64,000 nucleotides of DNA from Heterostelium album PN500 (taxonomy: Eukaryota; Evosea; Eumycetozoa; Acytosteliales; Acytosteliaceae): positions 2,604,001 to 2,668,000 of the forward strand of contig NW_008805064.1 in the NCBI RefSeq assembly GCF_000004825.1, in the 5' to 3' direction. Below the pieces are notes generated by a model. It was not told the DNA's origin. It saw only the letters and a program-made list of their open reading frames with translations, and did not search any database. Positions 32,849 through 56,992 of this stretch are shown in pieces (within the stretch, counting starts at the first letter, position 1; every line of letters begins with the position of its first letter). The translations under genes were made by a program, and so were the position numbers.

Positions 32849-32885
32849 GTTTATTTTTTTGTAAAAGCATCATCATATTTAAACA

Positions 32886-33461
32886 ATGTACAGCGATATT
32901 ATCAATATCAGATATGCTAAATACAGTGATATAGCTGCTATAACAGATATCTATAATTACTCGATCAGACATGAAATATCAACTTTTGAAGAGGTTGAGA
33001 TTTCAGTGGATGAAATGAAGGCTAGGTACGAAGAAGTCGTTATAAAAGAGAAACATCCGTATATTGTTGCTACTACTAGAGGCAAAGACGGAGAGATAGT
33101 AATTGGCTATTGTTACCTTCTTAGATACCGTGCAAGATCAGGATATCGTTATACCAGTACCGACAGCATCTATATACATCATGAGCATCGTGGAAAGCGT
33201 GTTGGTTCATTGTTATTGGAGAGGATAATCGAAATTGCAAAGGAAATGAATTACTATAATATGATTGGTGTTGCTAGTGGTGGCAATGATGTTTCCATCA
33301 AGCTACACAAAAGATTTGGTTTTCGATTCCTTTGTTCAATGGAAAATGTCGGTCTAAAGTTCAATCAATGGATCAACACAGACTACTTTCAACTTGTATT
33401 AAATCCTTCTAAAGAACTTCCAACTCACCCAATAAAATTAATAGAATATATGGATTTATGA
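32886..33461 (+). CDS. GNAT acetyltransferase, phosphinothricin-acetyltransferase-like
   Basis: Single exon, 191 aa, the full length of this family. It opens with the family pattern IRYAKYSDIAAITDIYNYSI and has the STFEE motif, GYCYLLRYRARSGYRYTSTD, the acetyl-CoA loop HHEHRGKRVGSLLLERIIE and the IGVASGGNDVSIKLHKRFGF block. In bacteria these enzymes acetylate phosphinothricin, methionine sulfoximine or other amino-group substrates; the amoebal substrate is unknown. The loop reads RGKRVG instead of the usual RGxGIG, a conservative change. The lack of introns and the bacterial-type family are compatible with old horizontal transfer, but codon use is like its neighbours. It ends 42 bp from the stop of the convergent giant gene. 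Confidence 0.85.
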   Translation: MYSDIINIRYAKYSDIAAITDIYNYSIRHEISTFEEVEISVDEMKARYEEVVIKEKHPYIVATTRGKDGEIVIGYCYLLRYRARSGYRYTSTDSIYIHHEHRGKRVGSLLLERIIEIAKEMNYYNMIGVASGGNDVSIKLHKRFGFRFLCSMENVGLKFNQWINTDYFQLVLNPSKELPTHPIKLIEYMDL

Positions 33462-33503: not shown

Positions 33504-36500
33504 TTAGAAACCATTAGTTGAAATGTCTGGCACTCCAGTATCAACAGAGGATGTTGAAGAGGTTGTACCTGTCGAGGTAGTAGTGCTGGTTGTGCTGTCA
33601 TCAGGGGATGTTGTTCCAAAATCAGTTGTACCTGTTAATGAAGTTGTGCTTTCACCTGTAGAGGTAGTACTGTCATCATTTGAAGTTGAGCCGTCTGAGG
33701 AAGTTGTTCCAATCTCAGTTGTACCTGTAGTGTCACTAGAGGAAGTAGTGGTGGGGGTGCTTTCATCAGAAGAGGTTGTACCTGTAGTACTGTCACCAGA
33801 GGAAGTAGTGGTGGTTGTGCTGTCTGAAGTTGTTCCAATATCAGTTGTACTTGTCGTGGTTGTGCTTTCACCAGAAGAGGTTGTACTTGTTAATGCTTCA
33901 TATGTAATATTACCAATGTGATATAGATTCATTCCATTCCAATTCATTACTATTGGTTTTGTGAAATCACCCATCAAATATGGCGGAACTGAACAATTTA
34001 CAAATGATGGGTCAATTGAAATGGAGCAATTAATCTGTGATCCTTCAACAATTAATTCTGGTTGTACCGAATAGTTCCAAAAGATATTATTCAATTGTAT
34101 TGTTCCTCCACTTAATGGAGTTATTGTAATATTATTGAATAGGTCTAAAAAAAAAAAGTCAATATATTTGTTTGATTAATTATTGTTAATCAACTTACCG
34201 AAAAAGATCAATTCAATTGATGTTATGTTGAGATTTATAATGGTTGAAGATTGATTATTTCTAATTAAAATAGTTGATCCATTGAGTAAAGTTAATGCTA
34301 CATGTTGATCTGAATTTGTTGTGAGTGCCAATATTGAATTATTCCATGAAATATTATTAAAGAATGATGAATTGAATTTCCCATATGGGATTGTCAATGA
34401 AAAGTTGGATGTTGTAATGTCGTTGAACAAGGTGATACTGTTATTCGGATTGGACTTGAATAATATTAAGTTGTCAAATGTAGTTGAAATGGTTGTTGGT
34501 TGTTCAATCGAATATGTTATGTTGTTCAGGGAAATAGTGGTGTTCGATGATTCAACATTCTTTGAAACATAAACGAATGATTCTCCTGGGACATCAGTAA
34601 CAATGAAGGATGGAACTGAATTAACATTATAATATCTATTTAATTGTTCTCCATTCAAATTCGATTGAACTAGAACTGATATTTGGACTGGATATGTTGC
34701 ATTATCATCATTCAAACCATTAAAGTTATCATCCAAAAATAAGGTTAGATTCAATTTTGATTCTAGAGGTTTTTAATTAATAAATTACTACTATGTTTTT
34801 GTTATTAATTAAATACTTACTGTATCCAACTGTGATTATTGATTGTTGTAAAATAATATTGCAAATAGATGGGAACTGTTATTTGAAAATATAAAGTTAA
34901 TAATAATATTTAACAAATCAAGTTGACGGATTAACTTACAGAGAAAGTGTGATACTCTGAGCTATAGTTATAATTGAAATTCGATAAATTAAATGATCCA
35001 TATTGAATAGTAATCGATTCGCTTTCTTCATTGGTAATTGTTCCAACACATCCAAAGATAGCTATTTATTTATTTAAAAGAAAACAAAGTTAGTAAATAT
35101 TAATAATAATTTATAAAAATTCTTACATTTCCAAAATACCGAAATATTTCTTTTAATTTCAATTTGGTTGGTAACAGTAATAGAAATATATTGGGTTGGC
35201 ATAAAGTATGGTGTTTCTTCATCATTATTAAGCAATTTAATAATATAGTTTCCAGGTTGTGTGATATCATAAAAGAATATTCCACTTGAGTTACTCGATG
35301 TTATGAGGTCAAAGCTTGGACCAAAAATCTGAATACTCGTGTTTGCTAAAAATGATTCTTCTTCATCGTACATATTGTTAAAGTTGGTATCATTATAAAT
35401 ATATCCATAGAAATAGGTAATCGATGTTCCACCATCTCCACCAGTTGTACTATCAGTTGTACTGCTAATCTCACCGGTTGTACTTGTGGTAGATGTAGTA
35501 GATGTGGTGGATGTCGTAGAGGTCGTCGGATCGGATGGTAAATAGGTTAGAGTATGAATATTATAAAGATCCATATCATTCCATCTCGATGTGATTACTT
35601 TAGATAATGGACCACCACTCCACTCTGGAATTGTACATTCCAATCCAATATCAATGGGATTACATTCTATTTGAACAGAGTCCACAAAATATGATGCCGA
35701 TTTATATGAATAGTCATTACTAATAACAATCCTACCACCAGTTATTGGAATTGATTTTGAAAATAGATCTATTTTAGAATATTAGGATTAATAAGTAAAA
35801 TAATATTAATAATAATAATAAATAAAATTACTTACATTGATTAACAATTTCAATGTTTCCATAGGTTATTTTGTCAAGTAAAAACTCATTTCCATTTGGT
35901 GTAATGATTCTTCCGTTTACTTGACCATCTTTGGTGAATATTACAGTTTGGTTGGTTCTTGGTGTGAAAGACAATGAGCTTTCTATCCAATCGATATTGT
36001 CAAAGAATTGGTTGGTGTACTTTCCAAAGGCGAGTGAGAGTGATTGTGAGTTGGTGCTAGTGAATGCCAATGTCTTGGATGGTGGAACATTTAAGAATCC
36101 AAGTGTTACAGAGACAGTTGAAATCTTTGTAGGATCGTCAACATCGATAACATAGTTATTGATAATCGGTGTAATTACAAGATTTGGTTTGAATCTAATA
36201 ACTGAGCTAGATGGTAAATCAATAGCTTTACTAATTGGATATGAATAGCTTCTGATTAACTGTTTTCCATCTACTTTTGATATAATATCGAAATTGGCTG
36301 ATGAAATTGAAGTATCTCTCTCACCGTCCAAATTGGTATCTAAGAACAATGATAAATCGAGTGTTGTTTCTAATATTAAAATATATATTAGTCATTAATA
36401 AAAATAAAAAATCAATGTTAATACAGTTATACTTACTGTATCTTATTGATATCTTTTGACCAACTTGATTGACTAAACAATAATCTGGGAATTTTAGTGT

Positions 36501-39500
36501 TGTAGTTTCAAACATATATACTCCATAATCCAAAAGATTATAATCACCATATTGTAATGTTACATTCTTTGAATAGGTTTCAACAGTTCCTAGGCATCCA
36601 AGTCCTGATTTTGTAAATAATGGAATATTTTGCTCCCAACCCTCAAATGTAATAGGGATATGGAATCTTGTTTGTGGAAGGAAATATGATGGATTTTCAA
36701 AGTTTGGCGATGAAGTGATGAATAGTGTATATAGTCCAAGTTGTTGTTGGTCTACCACGATCTCATAGGTACCATCTTGAGATACCTTACCAAAAATAAA
36801 GTCATCTCCTTGAGCAACACCAATTGTAAATAATTTGCCACCAATAGGAATGTCATTGGAATCCAATTTCATGTTGAAGTTTCTATCGTCAAACAAACGA
36901 CCTTTGATCGTAGTCTTGAGTTGGAGTGAAGGTGGCAATGGTAGTACTTCGGGTATTTGATTTGGATCACTTCCTTCTGGTAATAGCCATGCAGGGAATT
37001 TACCCTGATCAACACCATTCTCCTCGCTTGGTCTGGGCCATCCATCTTCATCCTTATCGTCACCGTCTGAACCATCGGTCTCGCATGACCATGACTTGCC
37101 ACTCTTTAGTTTGAAATTGATATTGAATTTAATATTAACCTTTATCTTTGTGCCAGTGATTACAGCAGATGCAATCTTTCCCCACTCTATTTTGATTAAA
37201 TCAAAATCAGAGAATGGATAGGTAAAGTCTGGTGGTGGAATCAATTTCATTGTCTTTGAGAATATTTCTATTGGACTGGGACCTGTCAACGTAAAAACAA
37301 CTATCACAGGTATGTTTAGAATCGGTGTAGATGTCCATTCTATTGGAGGAATTCCAAGAATAAAGAGTTCTTGTGAAGTTATTTTTGGCTTTTCTTCTTC
37401 TTGGCTTCCACTTTCACTATTACTGCTACTCTCGCTACTACTCTCACTGCTACTCTCACTACTACTGCTGTCCTCTTCAGTATATTGATAGGTTGAAGTG
37501 GTAGATCTTGAATAGAATGTCAACTGGACAGTTGCAATGGTTGTAACAGGTGAGGTTGGAACAATACATGATACTTTGGATGATGAGAATACTTGCACAT
37601 TAGAGCAGTCTTGAGAACCAACTGTTACCACTGTATCTTCTCCAAAAAGACCCAAATTTGAACCACTTATTTGAATCAATCTTCTTACATCCTTATCTCC
37701 TGATGAAGGATCAATACTTGTTATTGATGGAGCTAAATATTTAAAATTGAATCAAATCAATATTTAATTATAATCGTGGAATGAAATAAAAAAAATAAGC
37801 TATAAACTTACCTGAATAAGAGAATTCACTATTTTTGTTTGAAATTTGATCTGAAAGTTCAGGATTTATATGCTTAATGTAGATTTCAATGTTTTGACCA
37901 CCTCCGCGTTTGTTTATGAAAACGACTTGATCGTTGGTCGAAGATACGATTGAACATTCAAGGTTCTTGAAATATACTTTCAAAGTGCTAGTTTCTTCAA
38001 TTAAATTGGATCCATAGATTGTGATTTCCTCACCACCATCCACAGATCCTTCTTTTGGTTCAATTCGATCTATCTTTGGTTTGTCATAGTAGGTGTACGT
38101 GATATCTTGGTTGGACTGTTGTGAATCAACTGTAATTGAAACTGTTTTCGAACCTTCGTTTGTTGATTGTGGCGCAACACATACAATAGATTCATGATTC
38201 CAAGTGAAAACAGGACAGTCTTGACCATCGATGGTAACAGTATCTTTGATATTTCCAAAGTTTGATCCAACAATTTCTACAATTGTATTTCTCGCCATTC
38301 TTCCTCTATTTGGTTTGATTTCTGTGATTATTGGCTCTGTTATCAAGAATAAAAATTAATTTATGTTATTAATACAAAAAAATAAATAAACAAATTTAAC
38401 ATACTTTGATATGAGAAAAAGGTATTTTGATCATTGATTTGACCTCCAACTTTGATTTCAATTGACTTCTTCTGGCCTGTACCAGGTGGAATCTTGCATT
38501 GCAAAGAATTTGAATCTTTCCAAGTTAGTGATTGGCATGATTTTCCACCAATCTTGACATAGTTGTTTTGATCATTGGTCGGTGTCGATGATGCCAAGTT
38601 TGAAGGAACAAAGTTTGATCCACTGATAACCAAGTTGAATTCACCTTTTGTTGGTCCGTTATAATCAGAGTTTGATGGTAGTGAAGGTTCTATATTATAA
38701 TTAAAATTTATAATTTTTAATAATTAATATTTAATTTATAGTTTTGTTTAAATTTTATGATATTTACTATTGTAAGAAATCTGATGATTGATTGTATGTG
38801 TTTGATTTCCAATGAATAGCTTGAAAGGTATGTTCTTTCCAATTCCACTTGGAATTTTACATGAAAATTGATTGTAATCTATCCATTGATAATCTGTGCA
38901 TTTCTTTCCATTAATATCAGCATAGCTTGATGATGGACCACCATCTGGAACATCTTTTGGAATAAAGTTGTCTCCAGTGATTGTGATTATTGAGCCAGAT
39001 GTATCACTATTTGGAATCTCTGAGATTTCAGGAACTTTATAACTAAAGTTTCCTCTGACATTTTGACCGCCAATAAAGATCTCCAAAGGAATCACTTTAC
39101 CAATACCTTTTTGGAAAGTGCATGATATTTGCGATTCATCAATGAATGTCACATCAGAACAAACTACATTATTGATTGTCACATTGGATTCAACGGTTGA
39201 AATCCCATTGGGAATGAAATTGGATCCTTTGATTGTAATCGATTCACCTTGTGTTGTAACCTTTGGTACTTCGACAATCTTTGGTGGATTATAGTTGAAG
39301 ATATTTGCTGTTGTGTTTTGATTGTCAATTGCAACAAAGATAGTTTGATTTCTACCAATACCAGCTGGCGATGAACATTCTATTCTTTGATGATCGATCC
39401 ACTTTATATCTATACATTCACTTGATTTGACGAATACTTTTGAATCTTTAGGATCGAGCACTATTTGTGGAATAAAATTATAGCCATGAATTGTAATCTT

Positions 39501-42500
39501 TGACCCACCTTTGGTATCACTTGAATCTGAACTGACAATTATTGGTCTGGAATATGAAAAGTTCATAAGTCCCTCGATATTTGGTTGATTTCCAATTAAA
39601 ACATTCAATGTCAAGTTACCACCAATTCCAGGAGGTAGAATGCACGTGAAACAAGTGGAATTTATCCATGTGGGTGAGGAACAGTTGTTTTCACCGATCT
39701 GGAGGTAGCTTGTATCGAGGTCAGATTGAGTCAAGTATGTTTTATTGGTAGGAATGAAATTGAAACCGTATATAGTGATAATATTATTTCCACTTGTATT
39801 GAAAGCTCCAACAATCTCTGAAATATTTGGTCCTAAAATTATTTTAAATTAATAAGTAAGTGTATAAAGAATATTTAATTATAAAAACTTACTTTCATAT
39901 GAGAAATTAAAGAGATTATTATCAAATGGAGAGTTTAGCATTAACTGATTTGCTAAAAACAAAGTAATAGTGAGATTTGCACCAACACCTGGTTGAATCT
40001 CTGCAACTATCAATGTTGAATTCTCCCAAGTCATATTCTTGATGTGGTAGTGTCCAATTGAAAGGTTACTTCTGTCGAACCCACCTTCATAATTGATGGT
40101 TGGAACCGGTGTTTCAGTATCAGTCTCAATGTCATAGATGAATTTCGGTTCATTTGGTGAGAAATTGATTCCAATAATTGAAATTGTTGAACCATCGGTT
40201 ACTAAAGTATTGGTGACCACCTTATTGATTAATGGTCTTGGGAATACGAGTGGTTCCGTTGAGTTACCTGATAGTTGATCACCTATTTCGATAATAACAA
40301 CATTGTCCATTCCAACACCGGCGGGCATCCAACAAATGATACATTCGAAATCAACGGAATCTCTAAAGATAGTACTTAACTCAATGTATGGATCGAACAT
40401 TCCTGGAGTCTGATGTTTTGGTGTTTCAATGACTTGATAATTTTCGTCAAAATATGTTTTGTTGAAATGGCAAGATTCATCAACGTCACAGCTATCAAGT
40501 CGATAGAAATGCTTGGTAATATTAACATATGGAATATCATATGTGAACGTTCCAAAATTAATACCGGCAATCCAAAAGTATCCAGCATAGGCAGTGTTGT
40601 TGAATGGCTCTTGTACTACTTGGAGTATGGTTGGTGCGAAATAATCGTAGTTCAAGAAATTCGATTGTTGCTCATCAACAATAATACTGAACTGCTGTGC
40701 TTTTCCATATCCTGCATTTGACAAACAATAGATTTCATTGTCACTTATTCTTTGGATATCATGACAATCTACACTTCCAATAATTGTTGGCCAAGATGAA
40801 TAGTCAAGATTTGGATCACCAAATTGAGAGCCAATTACTCTAATCACTTCTTCACCGCTAGTCTTCCACAATACATTTGAAATTGAATCGATTTGTGGTG
40901 GCTTATGATCGATTATCGCTAGATCTTCATAGATCTGACCACCAATCTCAATGGAGATGTTCTTGTTGTATCCAGTACCATTCGTTCTGAAAATGAAATA
41001 TTCGTTGACACCACCATCGAAGCCACCAGAGACCACTGGAATAGGAATACCACCAATACTCAACTTGATGTCATTGACTGTTGATGATCGCGAGAAAAAG
41101 TTACTACCAGTAACGGTCACTTCGGAACCGATCGTATTGAACGGACCACTCGGTGTAATAGAGGAGATAACAGGTTGTAAATATCTGAATTCAAAAGAAT
41201 TTGGAAGTCGGAGTGCATCTTCGATTGAACTGATTACAGATAGAGTTTTGACTCCAAGACCAGACGGAAGCATACACTGAACTTGGCTATAGTCTCTAGC
41301 GGTTGTATATTCACAATTTTCAATGATCTGATCACCGAAATGCAATTCGAAATATTCAAGATTTCTACCATTGATAACGAGTGTTGTTTCATCCTTGGTG
41401 GCGGAGGTGAGCGGACCAACCGAGAGAACTACAGGATCCGATTGACATCTAGAGAGAATATCACCATTTTCAAAATTTACCAATGTAGATGGAACGAAAT
41501 TACATAGCTTGCCAAAGTATGTAATAATGACAAAACCTTCATCTTCACCTTCGACCAATTCACTGGGAATGTAATAGGTTGCCATTTGATCGTTATAGTT
41601 AATAACCCGCTCAGTTGTTTCCACCAAGTACAGAAGCATTTCAGTAACGATATCGACACCTAACGGAGTGACTGGGTTGTATGGGTCAAATTCATGTGCC
41701 GGTACATCACAAAAATATCGGTCTCTAGTGCCAATGAGATCTCTTAACCATTTGGATGATGCCATCATAGATTTAAAAGGAGAATCATACAGAGTCGACC
41801 AAACTGAACTAGTAGTAATATCACTCGTATTGGATTGTGCCCATTTACCAAAAGTATCATACAGTTTACCGAGAGGAATTGAATACAGATCGGTTTCACA
41901 TACTTGAGATCTTTTAAACTTATCCAAGATAGGATCAATAGGTATATCACTTGAATTCTAAATAATTAAAAATATTAATATATGTTTGTTTAGATATATT
42001 AATATTAATAGTTACTTACTTGATTAATACAAAAACTACATTTATAGATATAATTTAAATACATTATACGATCTAGATTATCAAAGATCATAGTAGGATC
42101 ATCTACCTTGCTGACTATCTTTGTTTTTAGGATATCTATGATTGTAAAGATGTCGGATGGAACATTCTCCTTGATGATCTCAACTAGCAATGGGAATGAT
42201 ATTTCATCCAATCCACTTGTGAATGTATTTTGGTAGAATACCTCATCTTGGTCTGCTTGGTTATCAATTATATCCCAAATAAATGAACTGATAAGTCCAG
42301 AGGATTGGGCAACTGGCTGTGCAACTCCATTCTTTTGATAACTTTCAATTGAAATCGGTGAAGAACAATGAATAGTTTGTTTAGAATCTGTTGATAAAAA
42401 TGGAAACACCTCCTATAAAAAATTAATTTTTAAACACATATTTTATAAATACTTTTTACAACACACACTTACTTGTTTAAATTTAAGCGCGAATGAATAA

Positions 42501-44332
42501 ACTAATGATATAAAGGTTGCAGCCAATTCGTCATTTTCAATGTGTTGAATTCTCTCATTGATATTTAGTTCTATTAATTTATAGTTGGTGTTGAGTGATG
42601 TGATGTAATGATAACTATAACTAAGGAATAAGTCATCAATACAAAGGTTATCAAGATCAAATTCGTAGTTTGTGTTATTATTTATAATTGCTGTGTGTTG
42701 TGTGCTTATTTTTATATAAAGTTGTGATGGTGGTGTTGTTGGTGGTAGTGGATAGATATCAATTAACATTTGTAATGTTCTATACATTATAAATATATTT
42801 GTATCTAAAGTGGTAACAGCAACTACATTCGGTGTGAAAATGTTATCTTGATAATTCAAAACAGTTGAATAAACAGAGTTTTGATTATCCGATGTTATAA
42901 TAACAATGTTTCTCTTTCTATCTCTAAGTTGTAGTGAAGTTTGGCGACTATGATACTTCTTAATATCAATCATTGCAATATCATCGGTTTGATAGAGTGT
43001 TTGCTCTTTGAATGCAGCAATGCAATCGGATGAACAATCGATATTCGATCCGGGAATTGCAGTCACTGTTATGTCAGTATCTACAAAACTAGGATCGAAA
43101 GGAGTCTGTGAGAGTAATGCACCGATGTTTGTGCTGACCGTATTGATTTCGAATCGGACTTGACCATCTCCAATGTAATCGTTCTGAACTACATTACCAC
43201 AGTTAGCAAAAGCACAGGCTTGTGTAATTGTTTTGTAGACCGTCGTTATCAAGAATGTATTGATAGCTTCACTCTGCGTCTTAATACACAATGTCATTCC
43301 AAGAGATGATTGGACAGTGGAGTGGAAATCAACCAAACACAAATGTGTTGTGTTGAATGCGAATCCAGCCATTTCCAACTCTGATTTCCATTGCCTGTCT
43401 TCAATTGGAATATCCATTTGTTCTGAAAAGTCATATGGAAATCTATTCTCTACTAAACCTAAACTATTTTGTGGAACCAAAGTATCAATTACTCTCTTTT
43501 TAAAATAAAATTAATATTATTTCTCTCTTTTTATTTTAAGGAAATTGAATAATACTTACTGGCATTGTTATATAACCTTTCAAATTTGGCAAAGTGTTTG
43601 ATTGTTTACCACTCAATATTTCGATATTGTTGATTGTTAATAATTTGTTGGAGGTGTCAATGGTATAATTTGTGAATAGCCGATTGAATAGCAAGCTATT
43701 GGAACCGGTAAGAGTGTTAAAGTAGATGTATGGAACCAATGGGAGCAATGTGTCTACAAACTTGTCATTCAAAGTATCGAATCTATGACAGAGAAAAGAA
43801 TGACCAACATTCAAATTTATAGGTTGATCATCTGCTAAATGATAGTCGTTTGGTAACCATTTGGTGTTGCTGGATGGTGTTACAATATTTTGACTGTCAA
43901 CAACGATAGCAGGGAAACCTGGTAGTGTATGCTTAACATGAATACCATTTCCGGAGGATGAAGATATGGCAATGATACCTTTGGACTGACCGTATTGATT
44001 AACATTCCATTGTGAATTGATTGCTGAATATTGATTTCCAAGATTACTATTAATTTTCCATGGTTTATTGTTGAACATTAAAACCTGACTCGACTTAATA
44101 CTTTCAAGTGTACGACCAAGACTGCTCTCAGAACTCGATAGATCAATTGCATATTGAATAGTTGATTGATCATCAATGTAAAGATATCCATTTGACAATG
44201 GTAGTTTCTTGATATACCACCACTGAACTATTTGGTTGTCAGGTGACAAACAATTAGGATCAGCAGCTAAACTATTATTATTACTACAAATAAATAAAAA
44301 AATAAGTAAATATATAAATATTTATTCTTCAT
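33504..44332 (-). CDS. giant secreted DNase II-like/IPT-TIG/SdrD-like protein (minus member of pair)
   Basis: Fourteen exons: 44332-43560, 43495-42473, 42412-42020, 41957-39893, 39832-38768, 38689-38405, 38336-37812, 37732-36437, 36369-35836, 35768-35127, 35061-34940, 34875-34821, 34762-34199 and 34144-33504. All junctions are GT-AG and in phase; total about 3327 aa if one base is missing in the A7 run at 44296-44302. Domains in order: signal peptide; DNase II-like domain (QWWYIKKLP, SKGIIAISS, IHVKHTLPGFP) lacking the catalytic His of HxKG and with no clear DHSK; a region shared with the plus-strand partner (about 380-900); many IPT/TIG repeats (about 905-2125); a Ser/Glu-rich spacer; SdrD-like units (KGRLFDDRNFNMKLDSND, LSLFLDTNLDGERD, LTLFLDDNFNGLNDD) alternating with crystallin-like modules; a final Ser/Thr-rich mucin-like tail. 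No membrane helix is seen, so it should be secreted. Probably an adhesive matrix or surface protein. Confidence 0.82.
33860..36440 (-). repeat. tandem duplication of an SdrD/crystallin-like module within the minus giant gene
   Basis: Two successive blocks, about 36440-35470 and about 35060-33860, encode the same order of motifs: YGDYNLLDYG versus YGSFNLSNFN; a short Cys segment; SLFLDTNLDGERD versus TLFLDDNFNGLNDD; LAFGKYTNQFFDNIDWIESS versus IPYGKFNSSFFNNISWNNSI; SRWNDMDLYNIHTLTYL versus MNWNGMNLYHIGNITYE; then a Ser/Thr-rich linker. The Thr/Ser linker of the second copy expands into the tail. Divergence at DNA level is high, so the duplication is old. Confidence 0.65.
44296..44302 (-). other. 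probable one-base deletion (A7 run) in the signal peptide of the minus giant gene
   Basis: From ATG 44332 the frame reads MKNKYLYIYLFF and then runs into a stop; the frame that continues into the long exon reads LFICSNNNSLAADPNC just after the homopolymer. One extra T (minus strand) in the run would join them into a normal signal peptide. No intron could do this, since only 16 nt separate the nearest GT and AG. Total exon length is also one base short of a multiple of three. A sequencing or assembly error in the homopolymer is most likely; a real disabling mutation is the alternative. Confidence 0.65.
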
Positions 44333-44951
44333 TTTAATAATAAATTGAAAATCGTATGATCAATCATACATACCTTTTTAATTAGAATTAGATATTAATC
44401 GTTCATTTTTAAATTAGGATTCTAAATCGCTCGTTTCACAAAACCTGAACAATGAAATAATATCTTTGGTTCCAAGCTAAAAATCTTTTCAAAAGTTAAA
44501 GATCAATCCATCAATCTTTTGTACATTTATATACCAAACGACATATGAAATGATTGAAAGAACGAGTTCCTCAAATGATCACACCAAGTTTGTTGAAGAT
44601 TCAATCAAAAATAAATATTTCTATAATTTTTAAAATATTTTTTTTTAAAAATTTTGCAGGTCTTCATTTTTGATTAGCTAATCATCTTTATGTTCGTTCA
44701 CGACTCTTCGAACCAAAATGAATGATTTTATTATTATAATACTAATGATTAGTGATCACCTTTATTTGCATATTTTTGGTGTAGGGTGTTCAACTATGAT
44801 CATAACGACGAATCTGCAAATGTAACAAAATTATCTTTTTGATTGAATAAACTACTTGGTACAAGCACGAAGCAATCACGACCGAATAGAAGTAAGTGAT
44901 CATTTGTTTCCACTCTATTCTTTTCAATTCAATTCCTTTAGAAAAGATTTG
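44333..44951. promoter_or_regulatory. 619-bp bidirectional promoter of the giant gene pair
   Basis: The two giant genes read outward from this gap. It contains a perfect 14-bp palindrome, TGATTAGCTAATCA, at 44671-44684, a related ATGATTAGTGATCACC at 44747-44762, and several TGATCA/GATCAT words (near 44355, 44575, 44798). Shared control of the pair is plausible. An in-frame ATG at 44856 exists upstream of the plus gene but would hide its signal peptide. Confidence 0.5.
44671..44684. repeat. 14-bp perfect palindrome in the bidirectional promoter
   Basis: TGATTAGCTAATCA equals its own reverse complement. It lies about 340 bp from the minus start and 270 bp from the plus start, a suitable place for a dimeric homeodomain-like or other regulator acting on both genes. 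Confidence 0.55.
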
Positions 44952-47900
44952 ATGAAAGAGATAAAAATAGTTTTATTATTCTTAACACTGATTGTGTTGC
45001 CTTCTGCACTCTCAGTGTTTGTTATTGACAGTCATGTCTATAAAGAAGGTTTCAGGATATCTATTCAACTACCGCCACAATACGCTTTTGATCCGACTAA
45101 ATTCAAGGTGACAGTAACAGACACCACCGATGTTAAAGACTGTCAATATGTTGGTGTGGTAGGTAGCGGTGATACAGTTGTCTATCAGATACCGGATCTA
45201 AGACAAGCGGTTGTCGACACTAATGGCGATGGTCTACCAGATCGACCACTGAAAAGAACCAAGTCAAATACCATCGATAAGAAATACTCTTTGGTTATAC
45301 TTGATCAAGCAACTACCAATCCTTCACAATCATTCGATTTAGAGTATATCAGTAAGTACAAATATTATTCACAAAACTACACTATTATTATTATTAGTAC
45401 TTTTATTTTATTAACTAAAATGATCTTGTATTTTTATTAGCACCATCTGTAACTGCATTACCTAATAATATAATATTAGAAGGAATGAAATCATTCAAAT
45501 TTATTGGGTTGGATCTTTTCTATCCAAATTTCGCACCTAAAATCACTATTATAGATATGATCGATCCAAATAAGTTGTACGATTGTTTTGTAACGCAAAG
45601 AGTATCAAAAGATGAAATTCAATGTGATTCTTCTCTTCAAACTATTCCACTTGGTGACTATACAGTAAACTTTGAATATCCTGGTTCATCTATTAAACTA
45701 AAATCTCTACTTAAAATATTTAATCGTAAGTTTAAAAAAAATAAAATTGAATATCGATCACTCATAAATTTAATCTAATTTTTATTTATTTTTATTTTTT
45801 TATTATTTATATCTCAAAGCAAAAATTATTAAACCACTGGACACACCCACTCTAAACTCTCATCTGATTTATGATGACCCAACTAATTTTATTACAATCA
45901 AATATAATTCACTTATTTTTGGTTTAAACATCAATCATGTAAAAGTAAATTTAGTAGGTCAGACCAAATCGGTAGACTGTAAAGTTCAACAATTAACAGG
46001 TGACAATGAAATTAAATGTTCATTAGACACTCCAGCCGAGTTTGAAGATGGTGTAGTAAATGCTATTGTCACTATAAACGGAAATACTCTAACAGAGTTT
46101 CAGCAATTTAAATTCTTTGGTATGTTAAAATAATAATGTATTATAAATGAATGAATATTAATTATTAACACTATATTTATTAGTTCCAAAGTTTAAAGAT
46201 TCTATGGTATCTGAATTCATCGGCGATATGACAGGAGGTGAAATGTTTGAGATAGAAGGAACTAATCTTGATCCTTCTGGTACCGTTTACTTTGAGACTC
46301 TAAACACTCAAGTTAAATGTATATTCAAGAAAGCAGTACCACAACAAACAGATTTCGATAGTTATGAATGCTTTGCGCCTACATTCTTCCCGACAACAGA
46401 TCCTGCTCTATGGTTATATTCTATCAAAGCAAAGATGTATGGAAGAGATTATACTACTGTTTATACTTTTCAATATAATTGTAAGTAAAATTAATATATA
46501 AATTTAATTTTAAATAAAATCTAATAAATATTGATAATCTGTAAATTAAATAGATCCAAAGATTGATAATACACAAACTTCAATGCCTATAATCAACAAA
46601 GGAAGTTCAATCGTAACAATTAAAGGAGATCATTTGACAATGGTTAACAAAGTAGATTTGAATGGCATTACTATCAATCCAAATGACTACCAAACAACTG
46701 CAAACTCGATTAACATTGAAATTGATTCCCAAGCACTATCCGTTACTAAAACAATCAAATTCTTTGTTGAAAAGGTTCAAATTGGTGCCGCCACTCCTCT
46801 TTTATTTGAAGTAGTACAAAATATAGATTTTAAATTAGTTTGTAAGTGTGTTATTGTTAGTTTTAAAATTTATTTTATTATTTTAACTTTATTAACTTAA
46901 TTGATAGCACCAAGTATCAAAGCTAGAGATGACAAATCACTTTCAATATACTTTCTCGATGATCCAACCACCAAATCTATTTTATTTGATCTCATTGATT
47001 TCCCAGAGAATCAAGACTATTCCATTATGTTGGGAGATGACGAGTTAAAGTGCGAACCAGATACCAATATATCACCAACTCCGATCAAATGCAATGGAAT
47101 CAAGCCAACCACTGAATTGACACTCCCTAAAGAATATCCATTTAAGATTGTATTTGATCCAACCAATGTCAAACCAAACTTTATAAAAGTGTTTGACACT
47201 TTACTAAAATTTAAATATATTGGTAAGTTAAATTATTTTATCATGGAGACATATAAAACAATATATTGATATTCACTTTTTCCATTTCCTAAAGGAATTT
47301 CCTTTAATGTTGAAAGTAACAAGGCAATAGATATAATGAAAATCAATTCAGGATATCTAAGATTGGTTAATGGAGAAAGATTGGATGCTGCCAATTCAAT
47401 TTCCATTGGAGAATCAATGATACCCATTGATAATGTTCTCACAATCAAGAGAGTAAATTCTCCAGATCTTTTTGTCACAGGAAGAGTCTTAAGTAACAAC
47501 GCTCAATCTCTAAAGATGCTAATAGACCGCAACACTGTCCAATACTCTGACGATCTCTTTATTATTTCTATGGTTGGTCTATATCAGAGTCATACTCCAA
47601 CTACAGTTACATTCTTTGATATCGATTTGACTACAGATGAAGTTCTTCCAACCACAACAACAATTAGAGGTATATTTATAAGTCAAAAGGATCATCTCGG
47701 TACTATATTGGTTGAAGGTGATTACGATTACAATTCAATGTTACTCACTGTTGATACCGTTACCTACGATATAAGTTTAATCAAGCAAGTTAAATCGGTT
47801 TATTCAATATCTTTGAGCACTGTTGGTTTGGACCCACCTACAAACAACTATCCAACAAATCCACCAAGAGCTATGATTGAGATTGAGTTGTTTGGAGTCA

Positions 47901-50900
47901 CCTATCTCAACAACGTTGTTCAATTCCCAACAGACAGATCATTCATACTCCAAGTTGATTTTGACAACATCAAAGAAAGTGGTTGTTTATTGGTAACACC
48001 CGTTGGAAATAAACAATCAATTGCCTGTGCACTTCCGCCACCAAACTCCAAAGATTTGGAAATAAGACCATTGAAATATTTAATTGGACAAAAAACAATC
48101 ACCACTGATATATCTATTGAATTTAAAGGTGACTATTTCTTATAAAATTAAATACAAACATATTTTTAATACTAATTTAATTTAGTTCCTAGAATCATAA
48201 GTGCAACTCCATTATTTGGATCGAAATATAATGATGATTTATTAACAATCACTTATACCAAAGGAGATATTCAATTCATTGAAATTCGACTCATTAAATT
48301 ATCTGGTGTTACCATCGTTCTACAATCTTGTACTGTTGAAACAGCAGTACCTGGAACTACTAATCAATTCCAAATGACCTGTACAAAGCCACTTGGAAGA
48401 GATAGCGGAAACTATTTGATTCAAGTTATCGATAAACAAACAAAAATGATTTACTCCTTAGAGAGAATCTATTTTAATAACTATGGTAATTACTTAATAT
48501 AAATTTTACCAACATTTAATAATAACGTTAATAATAATTTTTACTATTTCAAAAATATAAAAAAAGGTATTTCTTGTTTGGGACAAGCAGATGGACCAGT
48601 AAATCAGTATAATAACAAACCAGTTTCATGGTGGTTCACCTATAAGCTAGGAAAAAGAGGTACTTTTGATCAAAATGATTATAATAGTTATCTCTATATG
48701 GATGAATCAACTGATTCAATTGTAATGAAAGAGCATCTGACTCCGATTAGTAAGAAATATGGAGGTGTTCAACAACAATTCGACAGAAATCAAAAACTAT
48801 CTCCACTTGCAGCTACTTTTAAACAATTGGATGCAACCAACACCTATTATTATTTGTAAGTAAAGTTTTATGATTATTTATATAATATTAACACTATATA
48901 AACATAAACAATACTAGCTGGAATGATCAATATGGTGCAAGAGACTCAGATGGTGCCCGTGGTAATGAGAAATCAGCAGATAATTATGCACATGCTAAAG
49001 GTATTTATAATTTATGATAGTAATAATATCAAATTAATTAAGATCATTATTAATTAAAATAACATTTGTGAAGGATTTATCATATATGATATTGAAGATG
49101 GTGTTGCCAAAGGAATTCACGTAACTCACTCTAATCCAGTCTTTCCATCTCTGAATGGAAGATTCTATGACCATTTTGCCGCTGCTCCATCCTATCCATC
49201 GAAATGGCTTGGTAAAGCTGACAACGGACAAAATTTCTTTTGTTATAACTTTGAAGATCTCGGCAGTGTTGTTGACGATATGGTCAAAACCGGTGTATTC
49301 TTGTTGGATCCAGTCGATGGAAATAGAGTACCAGACAATACTATAATGTGTCGTGGAAATATTCCTTGTGTCGATCTCTACAGACTTGGCAACAGACTTT
49401 CTATACTTTCAAGATATCAAACCTATATTGATGTAAGATTTAAATTGTTTTTAATTAATGACTTATTGGAAATCCAAAAACACTAACTTATTCAATTGAA
49501 TTCAATAATAATTTGTAAAAAAGGGATGTACAAATAGAATTAGAGATATATATGATAGAAGACTGGATGAAATAGCAAGAGCAGTCAATGACCAATCTTT
49601 TATTAATAAATTAATTGGCAATCGATTGACACTTGCTCAGATACGAACATTGAATATCAATCATCCACCTCAACGATACCAAAATTTGGAAAATCATTGC
49701 TATTGGATGTCGGAGAGTAAAATCAAAGGAATTCAAAGACCATCAATTACCAAAACACTAAAGTCATTCCCAAAACCAAATATCAATATTCCCAACGATA
49801 TCAGAGATAATGTGTTTGCAATCGAATCTGGCAATGACTACACATTAGCTAATCCATTGATTCCATGGGAGATAGTAAACAAAGTCGGGCATTTAAAATA
49901 TGATGGTGTTGATATTTTTGAAGTGATTGCAACACTCTATTACAAAAGAAAATTCTTTGTACAAACATGGAACAGTATGTAATAATATTTTATTCAACAG
50001 GAAAACGTTAACGTTAAATTTTATTAATATTATTATTATAAGCTGGTTCCTCACAATTGCCAGTTTATCAAGTTTTACCATTAAATCAAATCACTCATCT
50101 TCGTAAGTTTTCCAAATTATAGAATTCACCTAGTTAAGACTTATTAAATGAAAATTATTATCTTTTTTCAAACTTCAGAGTTCAATGATGATTTAATGAG
50201 ACGAAGAGATTCTCAAAATAATTTGTTGGGAACAAGTTGGCCTAGACCATCATATTCTGGAGCAGGACAAGATCACTCGAAATTTATGATTGATGCTTTC
50301 CCATATGAAGTTGAAAATGCTGCCATTTGTTTTGGAGATGGAAATCGTCACAATAAACAGGTAATTATAATTTTATTTATATTTTTCATGAACAACAAAC
50401 ACTTAATTAATAGTTATAAATTGTAGCCTGAGAGAGGTGGTGGTGCAGTATGTTTCGAAGATGATCAATTGGTTCGCCAACTCTTTAGTTTTATTCGAGG
50501 TTATTCGATCAAAACTCATGGAAATGAAGAAATTAATAAATACAAAGATGGAAGAATCTTTAGTCATTTGGTCGACCAGAATATTCGAATAGATGTCCGC
50601 AACTTTATTGGAGATGTGAAGCTTGCCGTAAAAAGAGGAAATGGACATCCTTTCATTCCTGAAGTGCCGATTACTAGACACATAATAAACGGTCCAGTCA
50701 ACACAATGAAACAGATCGACACCCAAATCCGAGTGGTAAGAACAATATCTCCATTTCCAAACGATGCAGCTTCTCCAAATCTAGAAGAGGTATCTGTACT
50801 CAAACCGTACGTCGCTCAGTACCTTTGGACGCCTGTTGTACCACCTGCATCGGAACCACCAGGTAGAAAATCAGTAAAAACATACGCTGAAGCTACACAT

Positions 50901-53900
50901 ATGACACTTGAATATCTTTCAATGGATCCAGTTGGATTGACAATCAATTCAATTGATTCACTTCAATTGTGTGGCAACGATCTTACCTCTGCAATAGATA
51001 ACCAAATGAGACAGTGTCTTGATGATAATCCCATATCAACAAGAATCACTTACAACGGGGTCAATCCAACTTTTGCCAATGATAATCAAATTGTGCTTGC
51101 TCATCAACAGTATTTTACGGCTAGTGACAGTAGATCCTATATCTTGGATTCAACAACCAACTATGAATTTGGAATCACTTCATTCATTCCTAAATTCAAA
51201 AGTACTATAGCAGATGTAACTTCAAGATTCAATATAATCATTGATTCAAGCATAGTTCCAATTTCACAATACAACTATCCGTTTATCTACTACAAACAAA
51301 CTGTTTCGATCCAAAAAGATATTACATTGGTCTATTTTCTCTTGACTCAAAAGATTATGAATCATGAGAAATACACAACCATCTCAAAAAACAACGACCA
51401 ATGGGGAAATGCAGTGATCATGGTTATTTCAAAGTTTGTTCATACCCTAATCAACAATCCAATGAACCCAATACCATCACCTGATTTTTCATCATTTTCA
51501 TTGATAGTACCAATAACTACAATAAATGATATCAGTATTAAACCGTAAGTTTAAAACATATCAACCGCCAAGATTTCAAACAACATAAATACTAATATTT
51601 ATATTTAGTAATGACAATGATAATGATTTTACAAAAGTTGCTTATTTAATTTGGAAATTAATGACCCAACAAGTAAATCCATTATCTTTTTCTGATATTT
51701 TGGCAGATCTTGATCTCTTTAAATCAACAACTACTGTTGATTTATATGAGAGATACAAACCAAAGATCAATCCACCAGATCCAAATATCGAGAAACTATT
51801 CAAGCCAGCACCAGCTATAGGAGTGACTGGTACTCGTTCTTCCAAACTTGGAGCACAAATCAAACAAGCAACATCTTCTCAACTTGCCGCACTATTAGAA
51901 TCTACTCTGATCGATCCAAAGGATATTTTCGATTTGGATTCTCACGAAACTAAACAGCTCTCGGATTCATTGGATATGTGGGCAGAAAATAGAATGATTT
52001 CAAGCCTTTTTGGATCATCACATTCAAATGAAATCAAATATCTTGATGAATTTTACAGAGTGTCATTGAAAAATGGTCTTTGTCCACATTATTCAATCAA
52101 TAGTATCACGCACTATCAAATTTGTAGAGCAATGTCAATCGTAGAATTCACCAACATCATCAGATATACACAACAGTCATTGAAATCAGTGAAATATTCA
52201 TTTGGTGAATTGGAATATTCCTTTTCACCAATGTCAATAAATTTCAAATCAATCTTTTTGGACACCAATTCTTTTGATGGAATATTGATTGCATCCATCA
52301 ATTCAAAGCTCTGTGATATCAAACTTATCAGACAATCACAACTTAGGAATATTGAATCAATAGATATTTGTAAAATTCCAGTTATCAATAATATTATTCC
52401 AAGCAACACCAGCAATAATAATTTAATAACAATCAATGGATTTAACTTCTATCCAACAACACAAATCTCTATTTCCTCAGAATATCAATGTTTATCACAA
52501 CAATTCCTAAACAGTACAAATATTGTTTGTGAAATGCCAGATCTAATGGATAACAACAATATTGTTGTTAGAGTTGATAATGTTGTCAATGACCAATCAT
52601 CGTTCTATGTCACAAACAAATGCCCGATCATCAATGATATTGTGATTCAGACTACCGACGAATTGCTTTCATCTTTGGGTGGTGACATTATTGAAATCAA
52701 AGGAAATTATTTTGGAAATTCTTTGTTGAATACCCAGGTTTTCTTTGAACATCAACAATGTTTCATCATAAAAATTGAAGATACATCCATTCAGTGTGTT
52801 ACACCACCACATTTTGGTATAAATATTCCAATTCGCATTAAAACAAGAAATTGTCCAAACATTCAATCAAATGATCAAAGAATATCGTTCTCCAATCCAA
52901 CTATTAGTACTGGTCAATCCATTGACTCGTTCAAATTCCCTGGTGATTCAATTTTGTTAAGTGGATCGTTTGGTTCATCTCCTCAGTTATACTTGGAAGA
53001 GAAACTATATTCATTTGAACTTATCAACGCTGAAACAATCAAATTTACCATTCCAAACGACGTTTTAATTCCTTTCAGTGCGCTGCCTTTGAAAATAAAG
53101 TGTAGAAACTCACAGGCAATTTATTGGTTATCTTTGTCATCAGGCTATTTCGCACCAAGATCTATCCCTCTTATAGTTCCAACTAAAGGAATGGATGTAA
53201 TATTCGACGGTGATTCATTTGGACTATCATCGAGTGAAATCGACAACATCACACTCAGCAATGGTGCAAAACTCATTGGATGTCACCGACACCAATACTT
53301 TATGGAATGTTCAGTACCTCCAGGAATTGGTTCAATCCTCTCTGTAACCGTAAATATCAAATCAGCTCTATACAATTTCAATGAAATTAAATCACCATCA
53401 AACTATATATCCTATGAGCACCCGTCGATTGAAAATTATATTATGGATAGTACAAAGATTACAATCAAAGGTAGAAACTTTGTTCCTGTTGGAGTTTCAC
53501 CTTTGGCATCAAATATATATTTTAGCAATACCCAAACCAATTGGATGATATGTCAAAATACTACGTTTGTTGATGATCAAACAATGGTTTGTAATCAAAT
53601 TCCAACACTCGATTACCAAACTCAATTCAATACCTATGTGAACGTAGGTGGTCAAACTTCAAACATCATCTCAGGAAAAGTTACATTTGTCCAAGGATAT
53701 GTTTATTTGGACTCTAATTTCAACAATGCCAAAGATTCCAATGAACAGATATTTACAAATTGCAGAGTTACACTATCGATCGATTCGATTGACAAATACG
53801 TTGCATCCTGTGACACCAAAGGATATTATTTTTTTACTTCAATTACCCCTGGAATATATGAATTATCAGCGAGCATTAACAGCGCAACCAAATATTTCAT

Positions 53901-56900
53901 TATTATATCAACTTCAATGCTAAATGTTTCCCAATCACAGTTCATTCAACAGGATATAGGTGCAGTTGAAGATACTGGATATAATTGCTATGCAACTTTT
54001 AATTCATTGACATCACCTTATAAATTGACGTTACCTTATGGTGCATATGATCTCTCCTATTATGAATGGTGTAGTGGTTTAGATGTTTGTAAATACACAA
54101 TTTCAAATGTCGTAAGTTTTTAATATTTTTTTAAATATTTTTAATCAAATTATTAATGTTGATATTTTTATTTCTTTAGGTAATGAGTAGTTCTGATTGT
54201 ACTTGGAATATTCTTTCCAATTCAAAAATATCAATTACTTATTGTAAGTAATAACCTTAATTTGCTAAGAAAACAAAATAATATTAATATTTTTAAATTT
54301 TTAATATAGCATCTACGATAACATTGAATTTTAAGAGAGATAATTTGGTACCACCAGGTTTTGATTCGACTCCATTTAGTGATTCATCTATTTCAGCAGA
54401 GATCAGATTCTCTTTCTATCAGAAACAATACATCTTCAAACAATACAACCAGGATTCTCAAATTATCTTTAGAGTTCCAGTAGTCAAGTCAATGGTGAAT
54501 ATTCAAACTGCCAATCAAACACAAATTTCAGTACTCAACAACTTTGCAATAACAGCTCCCAGCACAATGACAATTCCTATATTCATTTGGAAAAATACAC
54601 AAATTTTACCAGTGGTTTTATATGATAAATCCAATGGACAAGGTTCTACACTAACACTCCCACCTGGTTATCATAATGAATATACACTCAATCATCTTTC
54701 CTGGGTATCAAGGGCAATGTCAATCTCGATCCCTCCTCAATATCTTGTCCACATAGATCACGACATTGTTACTGGTGTTCCAACAATCTCTTATTCTGGG
54801 GATCCCTCAACACAATTTGTCAATTTTATCAATGTAATAAGTAAAACTATTGAAATTTCATATAAATGTAAGTTTTAAATTAGAATATTAAGAGGCTATC
54901 CAAAACTAATTATTTTTTCAAAAAAAAGCAATGTTTGACAGATTAAGTTTTACAGGTGGATACCACTCGTTCCTTAATACCTATATTGATCAAACATTGA
55001 TCCAATTTTTAATTGGTGGTAAGTCAAAACTCTTAAAAATTATTAAAATATTAAAACCAATCTAATTAAATTATCAATATAAAGATGATCAGTTAATGTG
55101 TACAAATACACAGTGTTATTTCACATCAGATGTTGGACCAAACGTTGTGAATATCAAGTACAATGGAATTAAAATTTACACCAATTACACAGTAACTTAT
55201 ACAAGTAAATATCTTCCTCAAAACTTTATTCTTGTTCAAGTAATTAACTAATATATTTTTAGGTCCTTACGGAGATCTTAATCAATACCCATACCTCGAC
55301 ACAAAGAATGCTACCAAGGACAGATTGAAAATTAATCAGTACCTACAAGTCAAAAATGGATCCACTGTTATTTCACAGATTTCATTTGATTCAAACGGTT
55401 TGTCGGTAATATCAGTAGGTAGTGCTTTACTAAGAATTACACCATTGATGTACTCAAGTTCATCATGCATCGGTGAAGATCAACTGGTATTCAGAGATGG
55501 TGTACTATGTATTTTCACAGTTAGAAACAACCAACAATATTGTACGAGATGGTGTCTGAATAATGAAAATCTCAAGGCCAGATATCTAAGATTACTACCA
55601 TATGGAATCGTTCTCCAAAATGAACAAATGGAAGTGATCTATGTAAAATATCAAGCGGATAACATAGCCAGTGTTGTCAGCCAAGATTATAAGAGAAGAT
55701 TTATCAATCCAAGAGTTTATTCTACCGTTCAATTGGATAACCAAAATCCCAACAACAATACGCTTTATGCCTATGGATCGGGAAGTCCATCAGTTCTCAC
55801 CAATGGAATACACTACATGATATTGGACGCCTCGTTTTGCCAACTTAGAATTTATAGTGATATGAAATTTGGAGTGGGATCACAACTATTGTTTATATCA
55901 AGCTATGTTGTTGCACCGGGAGTTCCAACAACCAATTGCAAATTGAATTTCGGTTTGGATGGAAATCTTTGTGCTACGACACCCGATGCCACTAAAATAG
56001 TGTGGTGTGCATACACTCAGCAACTTGGTGGTCGGTACTTTGGATTGCCACCCGCATACACTTCATCTCAAATCGGATTCTACATGACCAACTCCAAAGG
56101 TAGAATGGTATATGGAAGATTTGCTAATCTAATGGAGACATCGGAATTGAAAATGATTCCAGGAAGTTTCATTGTCGAGTCCACCCAAGAGTTTTATCCA
56201 GACATCGAAGACAGAAAGATCAATGTAGGTGCGTTTATAACGAATGGAGAGTCTTATCTCAGACTTGAAAGCAATGGTCAACTTAAACTCTACGACTCCA
56301 ATCCCTACAATACTATTGGTTCACCGCTACCAAAGGTAATGTGGAGTTCATTTGTAGCGTTTTCAGCACCATACAACGGTCCTATGTACGCCGAATTGAG
56401 ATTATCATCAATCACTATTTGTACTCCAACTTCAACGTTTTCCGGTGGTAAACTGGCAGTAACCAATGCCTTTGCTTCAGTGCTGCATTTAAGTTGGATG
56501 GCAATGAACAAAGAGAATGACTGGGGACTTTTATTCCTAAGTAGTGAAACCAAGATTATCAGTGGTCATCTTCCAATACCTGGTCAAATTAACAACTTTA
56601 TCCCGGTCAATACTATAACAAAAGATTCGTTTGAAAACGATTACGTTAGATTCAGATTAAATAGCCAACCAGGAATAATCGATCTTTATCACCTCCAAAC
56701 CAATTTAGTTGTTTGGTCAAGTCTTACCACCAACATTCCAGCGAGATCATCGTGCGCCAATTATAAATCAGACTTTTTAAACAACTCTACACTCCCACAA
56801 CTCTGTCTCTACACTTCGATAGGATCACCCGTCAACTGTAACTACTCGGGAGCCTACTGGTGCCAACAATTCTCACTAGGTACAACATACCTTCAAACAG

Positions 56901-56992
56901 CTTCATCCATTCCCGAACTAATAGCAACAAAAGATGACGGAAGAATAACATGGACTGCCAACTCTATAAAATACGCTAAACTGACAAAATAG
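44952..56992 (+). CDS. giant secreted DNase II/IPT-TIG/SdrD/lectin protein (plus member of pair)
   Basis: Twenty-one exons: 44952-45351, 45441-45725, 45820-46119, 46184-46480, 46554-46841, 46908-47222, 47295-48128, 48186-48485, 48567-48855, 48918-49000, 49074-49432, 49524-49974, 50043-50102, 50179-50360, 50427-51544, 51609-54111, 54180-54243, 54310-54867, 54929-55018, 55085-55204, 55263-56992; 3541 aa, all in phase. Order: signal peptide (MKEIKIVLLFLTLIVLPSAL); seven or eight E-set/IPT-like units to about 1005; a complete DNase II domain about 1007-1512 with SWWFTYKLG, YAHAKGF, IHVTHSNPVFP, QDHSKF and NKQPERGGGAVC; a region shared with the minus partner; IPT/TIG repeats about 2110-2540; an SdrD-like unit (GYVYLDSNFNNAKDSNE); a crystallin-like module; and bulb-lectin-like repeats about 2965-3541. 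DNase II is an acid endonuclease using the two His of HxKG and DHSK, both present. The donor at 48129 is GTGACT, weak but required by phase. No membrane anchor is seen. Confidence 0.85.

Follow-up and report, generated by a model that had tools for sequence, protein, structure and literature searches.

DNase II is a monomer whose active centre is pseudodimeric, each half supplying one HxK motif, the second of them within DHSK or DHAK (PMC4148230). As the excerpts cited here describe, a DNase II-like family of Trichinella spiralis has grown to 125 genes, nearly all without the catalytic motif and about half of them excretory-secretory (PMC4148230), and the lineage-specific gene expansions of dictyostelids share the enriched Gene Ontology (GO) term deoxyribonuclease II activity (PMC8535579). 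Polysphondylium pallidum has 110 IPT/TIG proteins (PMC4931340, in excerpt), and the lineage-expanded, TIG-bearing proteins of dictyostelids include the Tgr family, with its known two-protein pair, TgrB1/TgrC1 (PMC4448137, in excerpt). Here we describe a locus of Heterostelium album (Polysphondylium pallidum) PN500 in which DNase II and IPT/TIG modules are joined. In a window of 64,000 nucleotides (the whole stretch analysed, positions 2,604,001 to 2,668,000 of contig NW_008805064.1; coordinates below are positions within it), two multi-exon genes read outward, head to head, at 33504..56992. Each encodes a giant protein with both modules; the DNase II motifs are intact in the plus-strand gene and lost in the minus-strand gene.

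Both window proteins match the DNase II family (PF03265; for example, Protein Data Bank (PDB) entry 5i3e), as the first-pass annotation had claimed. The plus protein scores 114.7 bits (E 6.5e-33, in two stretches, the best at residues 1022-1191) against a curated cut-off of 23 bits, and the minus protein scores 71.0 bits (E 1.3e-19) when its N-terminal 349 residues are scanned alone, or 71.3 bits in the six-frame search. Our profile scans listed matches to E<=1; the domain is absent from the list for the whole 3323-residue minus protein, which is probably an effect of the HMMER filters. It lies at the N-terminus of the minus protein (43180..44264, minus strand, with the intron 43496-43559 inside it), and in the plus protein, where it spans several exons (48567..50540, plus strand, end approximate; 5i3e match E 4.4e-4), some 1000 residues of weak TIG likeness precede it. 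An ordinary-length DNase II of the same genome, locus L001, is a 360-aa open frame in which both motifs are present. In contrast, the window domains are parts of TIG-bearing proteins of 3300-3500 aa.

The two domains differ at the catalytic centre. In the plus gene, HAK (within AHAKG, 48991..48999) and DHSK (within QDHSKF, 50271..50282) are intact, and AHAKG and QDHSKF align with HTKG and QDHAKW of 5i3e, a bacterial DNase II of solved structure (Burkholderia thailandensis). The minus gene reads GQSKG (43977..43991, minus strand) in place of HxKG, with the first catalytic His replaced by Gln, and LEMAGF (43361..43378, minus strand) in place of the VDHSKW of L001, with the second motif lost. By its motifs, the plus gene is predicted to encode an active-type DNase II. 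The window pair would thus combine a nuclease with a pseudonuclease, because the minus gene has lost both catalytic motifs; of the secreted nucleases first proposed, only the plus protein keeps that standing.

How general is this division? We searched the genome (32.9 Mb in 39 contigs; C denotes contigs and L fetched loci) and found 65 exon-level matches to the DNase II profile. A search with the plus protein returned 23 loci and one fragment, which we term P-type, and L036 was added from its residues. The relatives of the minus gene, M-type, number 15 by coordinates: the window, three loci each on C15 and C12, two each on C10 and C25, and one each on C9, C6, C3 (at 17 kb) and C23, the last placed from coordinates with its residues unread. 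Matches on C27, at C9:28-30 kb, at C3:318 and 474 kb, at C10:746 kb and elsewhere stand outside both counts. Among the 18 P-type loci read (window, three on C15, L017-L020, L022-L028, L034, L036 and L038), HxK is kept in 18/18 and [DE]H[SA]K in all 17 where it was read; the second motif is unread in L038, and in L034 it directly follows a raw-frame stop and was taken as an exon start. Among the 14 M-type loci read (window, three on C15, L009-L016, L035 and L037), the first His is lost in every one, with Q, T, L or E in register with HxKG and the next Lys kept. The second motif, unread in L035, keeps its His in only one of 13 (L009, DHSH) and has lost its Lys in 13/13. Consistently, in a tree built from the N-terminal half of the DNase II domain, one branch splits the 14 M-type from the 18 P-type sequences with support 100/100, and an earlier 28-row tree gave 100/98 for the same branch. 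Both trees carry long-branch warnings (L036, L035, L037, L026 and L001 among them), and L001, included in the earlier tree only, falls on the M side via a long branch.

The joining of DNase II and TIG extends beyond the window as well. In a genome search with the TIG profile, all 150 candidates that were scored, of 729 from a first look, matched it, and in the other giants fetched, DNase II is followed by TIG in one frame or in neighbouring frames. As read from sequence, the architecture is therefore not special to the window pair, as had first been supposed; members of two subfamilies carry it. A literature search on DNase II in social amoebae, or with TIG, found the architecture in no title or abstract opening. 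The family resembles that of T. spiralis in being a large lineage expansion with loss of the catalytic motif; it differs in the fusion to TIG and in the head-to-head pairing of live and dead members, of which the excerpted account of T. spiralis makes no mention (PMC4148230). The dictyostelid expansion of DNase II had already been noticed through the GO term, and the excerpted report describes neither the architecture nor the catalytic loss nor the pairing (PMC8535579). In the main text of the IPT/TIG survey (PMC4931340), the words DNase and deoxyribonuclease are absent.

Next, we consider the head-to-head arrangement as a recurrent unit. An M-type and a P-type gene stand head to head at seven loci with both members read: the window, three on C15, one at C3:17-21 kb and two on C12. 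The distance between the divergent start codons is 619 bp in the window (44333..44951), as first annotated, 1526, 915 and 1240 bp in the C15 copies A, B and C, and about 913 bp on C3 (M ATG at 17,641, P ATG at about 18,555), giving a spacing of 0.6-1.5 kb wherever both starts were read. In the C12 pair near 1,057 kb, the P ATG is at 1,057,347 and the first M frame runs from about 1,058,268, about 0.92 kb away, the M ATG not being fixed; the C12 pair near 1,022-1,031 kb is known from both DNase parts, not from starts. A further locus, C23:5.8-10.7 kb, shows the order by coordinates only. Thus, 7/15 M loci have a P partner with both read, or 8/15 counting C23. The C15 pairs lie in blocks at 488-508, 945-955 and 984-1010 kb, whose aligned pieces are 96-99% identical, introns included, part of the spacer being unaligned, and the tree groups the members of the two C12 pairs as close relatives. 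Between the window and a C15 pair, amino-acid identity by exon is mostly 42-76%. Altogether, there are about three separate lines of paired loci. The regions C3:16.9-22 kb and C23:5.8-10.7 kb are mirrored DNase II pairs near low contig ends and resemble copies of each other.

We propose, with a probability of roughly 0.45, that the locus is one of several head-to-head units in which a giant secreted-type DNase II (P) and a pseudo-DNase II (M) would be co-expressed and would handle DNA outside the cell on a scaffold in the matrix. In the most likely reading, P is an acid nuclease that is secreted and carried on the scaffold, and M is a secreted pseudonuclease that selection has preserved. The common spacer would drive the expression of both: their tight divergent arrangement points to a promoter region in common, although the spacer sequence is not conserved between the window and C15-C. 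By the metal-free mechanism of DNase II, P would cut extracellular DNA, and TIG, lectin-like and CBM49-type cellulose-binding modules would anchor the proteins to the cell surface or matrix. Matrix binding is suggested by the lectin-like C-terminus of the plus protein and by CBM49 domains near the tail of the C15-C minus-like gene (L031:359-1228, minus strand; 43 bits, cut-off 23.4); the Pfam scan found no CBM49 in the window minus gene. M may act as a scaffold, a targeting subunit or a restrainer that binds DNA or P but does not cut. The likely setting would be feeding or the multicellular stage, in which extracellular DNA from bacteria or released by the cells themselves would be turned over; P may also act on DNA of biofilm, traps or prey, as the first-pass annotation suggested.

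Several points weigh against this proposal. The paired loci share ancestry through duplication, and recurrences of the pair therefore do not count as independent. No head-to-head partner is listed for 7/15 M and 17/23 P loci, the lists being threshold-limited. The words shared by the 619-bp window spacer and the C15-C spacer do not exceed chance. As DNase II is monomeric, P needs no partner to cut. Moreover, the leader of the window minus gene may be broken: the ATG at 44332 opens it in a frame other than that of the body (from 44321 on), and the change of frame falls within or close to a T-run. The leader is in frame with the body in all three C15 copies, so the window either contains an assembly error in or near the T-run or has suffered a recent break; inspection of the sequence by hand found no upstream exon that restores the frame.

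A doubtful but possible alternative is that P and M are independent neighbours with unrelated jobs, for example P digesting DNA and M being an adhesin with a leftover DNase fold, and that a block with a shared duplication history has been spread by segmental duplication. The near-identity of the C15 copies, introns included, is as expected from such duplication, and the loci without a listed partner and the lack of conserved spacer words also speak for it. However, the head-to-head order persists between the window and C15, in spite of their divergence, and further, on C12 and C3.

The selection among the C15 copies bears on the nature of M and on the remaining alternatives. We compared nonsynonymous and synonymous substitution rates (dN/dS) by exon group, with the exon numbers of the copy comparison. 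In M, exons 1-3 give a ratio of 0.19-0.26 and exons 4-9, compared in a single copy pair, 0.26. Because copy A stops within minus-like exons 10-13 and was aligned there to a wrong repeat, these exons enter the window-versus-C totals and not the group counts. In P, the ratio is 0.64-0.87 for the N-terminal part (exons 1-7), 0.65-0.87 for the DNase part (exons 8-11) and 0.28-0.37 for exons 12-14. Between the window and C15-C, all exons together give 0.24 for M and 0.27 for P, with dS saturated, and M exons 1-9 taken singly give 0.12-0.29. The low ratio among recent copies makes M look like a maintained pseudoenzyme, and we rejected the idea that M is merely decaying, yet the leader of the window copy is out of frame. 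In the C15-C plus-like gene, a frame shift lies in exon 8 (L030, near 2040-2190), through which copies A and B align; this copy may be decaying or misassembled.

P is the more variable of the two. Fisher tests on nonsynonymous versus synonymous counts, with single-test p values for the copy pairs AC, AB and BC, gave 0.003, 0.010 and 0.070 for the P DNase part against M exons 1-3, 0.019, 0.060 and 0.108 for the P N-terminal part against P exons 12-14, and 0.012, 0.110 and 0.057 for the P DNase part against P exons 12-14. In the DNase part, 65/444 residues vary among the three copies, and none of the catalytic motif residues does. The stretches before the two motifs hold 17 variable residues in 36, as compared to 48/408 elsewhere (hypergeometric p 9e-7, the stretches having been chosen after looking), and the variable residues are clustered, with 30 adjacent pairs against a mean of 9.4 and a maximum of 19 in 2000 shuffles. 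Gene conversion could explain part of this clustering; in copy B, exon 9 of P has a dS of 0.18, as after gene conversion.

Could the TIG-rich pair be a recognition system like Tgr, in which the rapidly changing parts of P, N-terminal and DNase, serve as the cue? TgrB1 and TgrC1 are polymorphic transmembrane recognition proteins that act as a compatible pair (PMC4448137, in excerpt), and the dN/dS of these P parts exceeds that of P exons 12-14 and of M, the DNase excess over M being seen in the tests above. Single P exons (2, 4, 7, 8, 10 and 15, picked among many) even reach 1.2-2.6 in one or more copy pairs. The genes of TgrB1 and TgrC1 lie head to head as well, an arrangement of which our literature search found no statement. 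Nevertheless, this idea appears improbable: unlike in the Tgr pair, inspection by eye shows no transmembrane tail in either window model, the catalytic motif residues are invariant in P, and in the two P regions tested for positive selection (N-terminal and DNase), dN shows no excess over dS (p at least 0.72). In addition, the comparison is between paralogs of one genome, not alleles, and copy B shows a possible trace of gene conversion. Even less probable, in our estimate, is a role for M as a dedicated inhibitor or decoy, protecting the DNA of the cell itself against secreted P. The head-to-head co-occurrence, the catalytic loss in all M read and the low dN/dS of M would suit such restraint. 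However, P varies near its active site and M is steadier (19/603 residues vary in exons 1-2), unlike a co-evolving inhibitor, and most P loci (17/23) have no listed M neighbour.

Returning to the co-expressed nuclease and pseudonuclease, we may also picture a more specific division of labour, which we consider unlikely as it stands: the dead twin would capture extracellular DNA or organise it, in matrix or DNA nets for instance, and its live counterpart would trim it, with the head-to-head unit kept in several lineages of one genome and the loops by the active-site motifs of the live twin changing fast between copies.

The gene models were assembled from open frames and splice signals and are supported by Pfam matches and paralogs. 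The minus gene, an M-type giant (33504..44332, minus strand), has 14 exons, as first annotated, and a body (44321-33504) of 3323 rather than 3327 aa. The exons are 44321-43560, 43495-42473, 42412-42020, 41957-39893, 39832-38768, 38689-38405, 38336-37812, 37732-36437, 36369-35836, 35768-35127, 35061-34940, 34875-34821, 34762-34199 and 34144-33504. The plus gene, a P-type giant (44952..56992, plus strand), has 20 exons instead of 21 and 3521 instead of 3541 aa, with no internal stops. Its exons are 44952-45351, 45441-45725, 45820-46119, 46184-46480, 46554-46841, 46908-47222, 47295-48128, 48186-48485, 48567-48855, 48918-49000, 49074-49432, 49524-49974, 50179-50360, 50427-51544, 51609-54111, 54180-54243, 54310-54867, 54929-55018, 55085-55204 and 55263-56992. 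Strong donors stand at most junctions, and several acceptors are ambiguous (48567, 49524 and 54929), so individual exon boundaries may be off. The three C15 pairs are colinear with both window proteins over most of the fetched stretches (copy B over 10 kb only), which favours one gene, and with it the single transcript first assumed, at each locus. In addition, no ATG from which the DNase part of the plus gene could start separately lies between the domain and the stop upstream of it, which argues against a separate gene. On these two grounds, we rejected the idea that either locus comprises several genes.

From the N- to the C-terminus, the minus protein comprises the pseudo-DNase II domain, 12 TIG stretches, SdrD-like modules and a Ser/Thr-rich tail, and the plus protein comprises the weakly TIG-like region, the intact DNase II domain, a segment, TIG, SdrD-like repeats and the lectin-like C-terminus. 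The IPT/TIG repeats (PF01833), already recognised in the first pass, are above cut-off in both: 12 stretches in the minus protein (278 bits; 37402..41498, approximate, minus strand) and four in the plus protein (68 bits; 52377..53667, approximate, plus strand). Of the signal peptides first assigned to both, the plus protein has a hydrophobic leader, as judged by eye, and the minus leader is the one out of frame. The SdrD-like assignment is weaker: SdrD_B (PF17210, cut-off 29.7 bits) scores 22.9-25.7 bits in the plus protein (22.9 bits for the repeat at 53700..53882, plus strand) and 14.2 bits in the minus protein, and it passes the cut-off in two paralogs, L031 and L028 (39.2 and 50.5 bits). 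The crystallin-like modules found no counterpart, Beta/gamma crystallin giving no Pfam match at E<=1 in either window protein. The segments between DNase II and TIG, first described as shared, have no Pfam match in either protein, and hhalign detected no relation between them (probability 0.4%) with thin alignments, of six single-frame M-type giants other than the window minus protein on one side and of the window plus protein and its C15-C copy on the other; a distant kinship thus may still exist.

The lectin-like region (55263..56992, plus strand) is 46-50% identical in the three C15 paralogs and recurs weakly at four other places. It has no Pfam match, and its three best PDB profiles are the pyocins L1/L2 with non-significant E values of 0.71-0.84, so the assignment as a lectin, of the B_lectin (monocot mannose-binding) kind, stays weak. 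AlphaFold models of this region and of the M-type DNase domain plus segment (paralog L009) are of low confidence (pLDDT 32.5 and 30.6, respectively). A PDB profile search with M-type gave one match, at E 0.18, taken as chance, and a tblastn search of prokaryote and viral collections found no relatives of the M-type profile. In C15 copy B, the lectin-like region of the plus-like gene (C15:940635-942331) matched as two overlapping pieces in different frames. A Ricin-type beta-trefoil lectin domain (39.9 bits) lies at L024:7865-8947, downstream of a P-type gene and possibly within it.

Around the pair, a gap of about 42 bp separates the end of a GNAT acetyltransferase open frame (32883-33461) from the 3' end of the minus gene, the flanking open frames match Rictor, Vps16 and FNIP-repeat domains, and a tRNA search of the window found none.

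In Dictyostelium discoideum, the DNA nets of sentinel cells trap and kill bacteria (PMC4773522, in excerpt). A secreted-type, adhesive family of live and dead DNase II proteins would provide natural candidates to cut, hold or shape such DNA, or the DNA of bacterial biofilms. The head-to-head pairs would offer a clean genetic handle on these functions, and a pseudonuclease subfamily beside its active sister may be a good case in which to ask why dead enzymes are kept.

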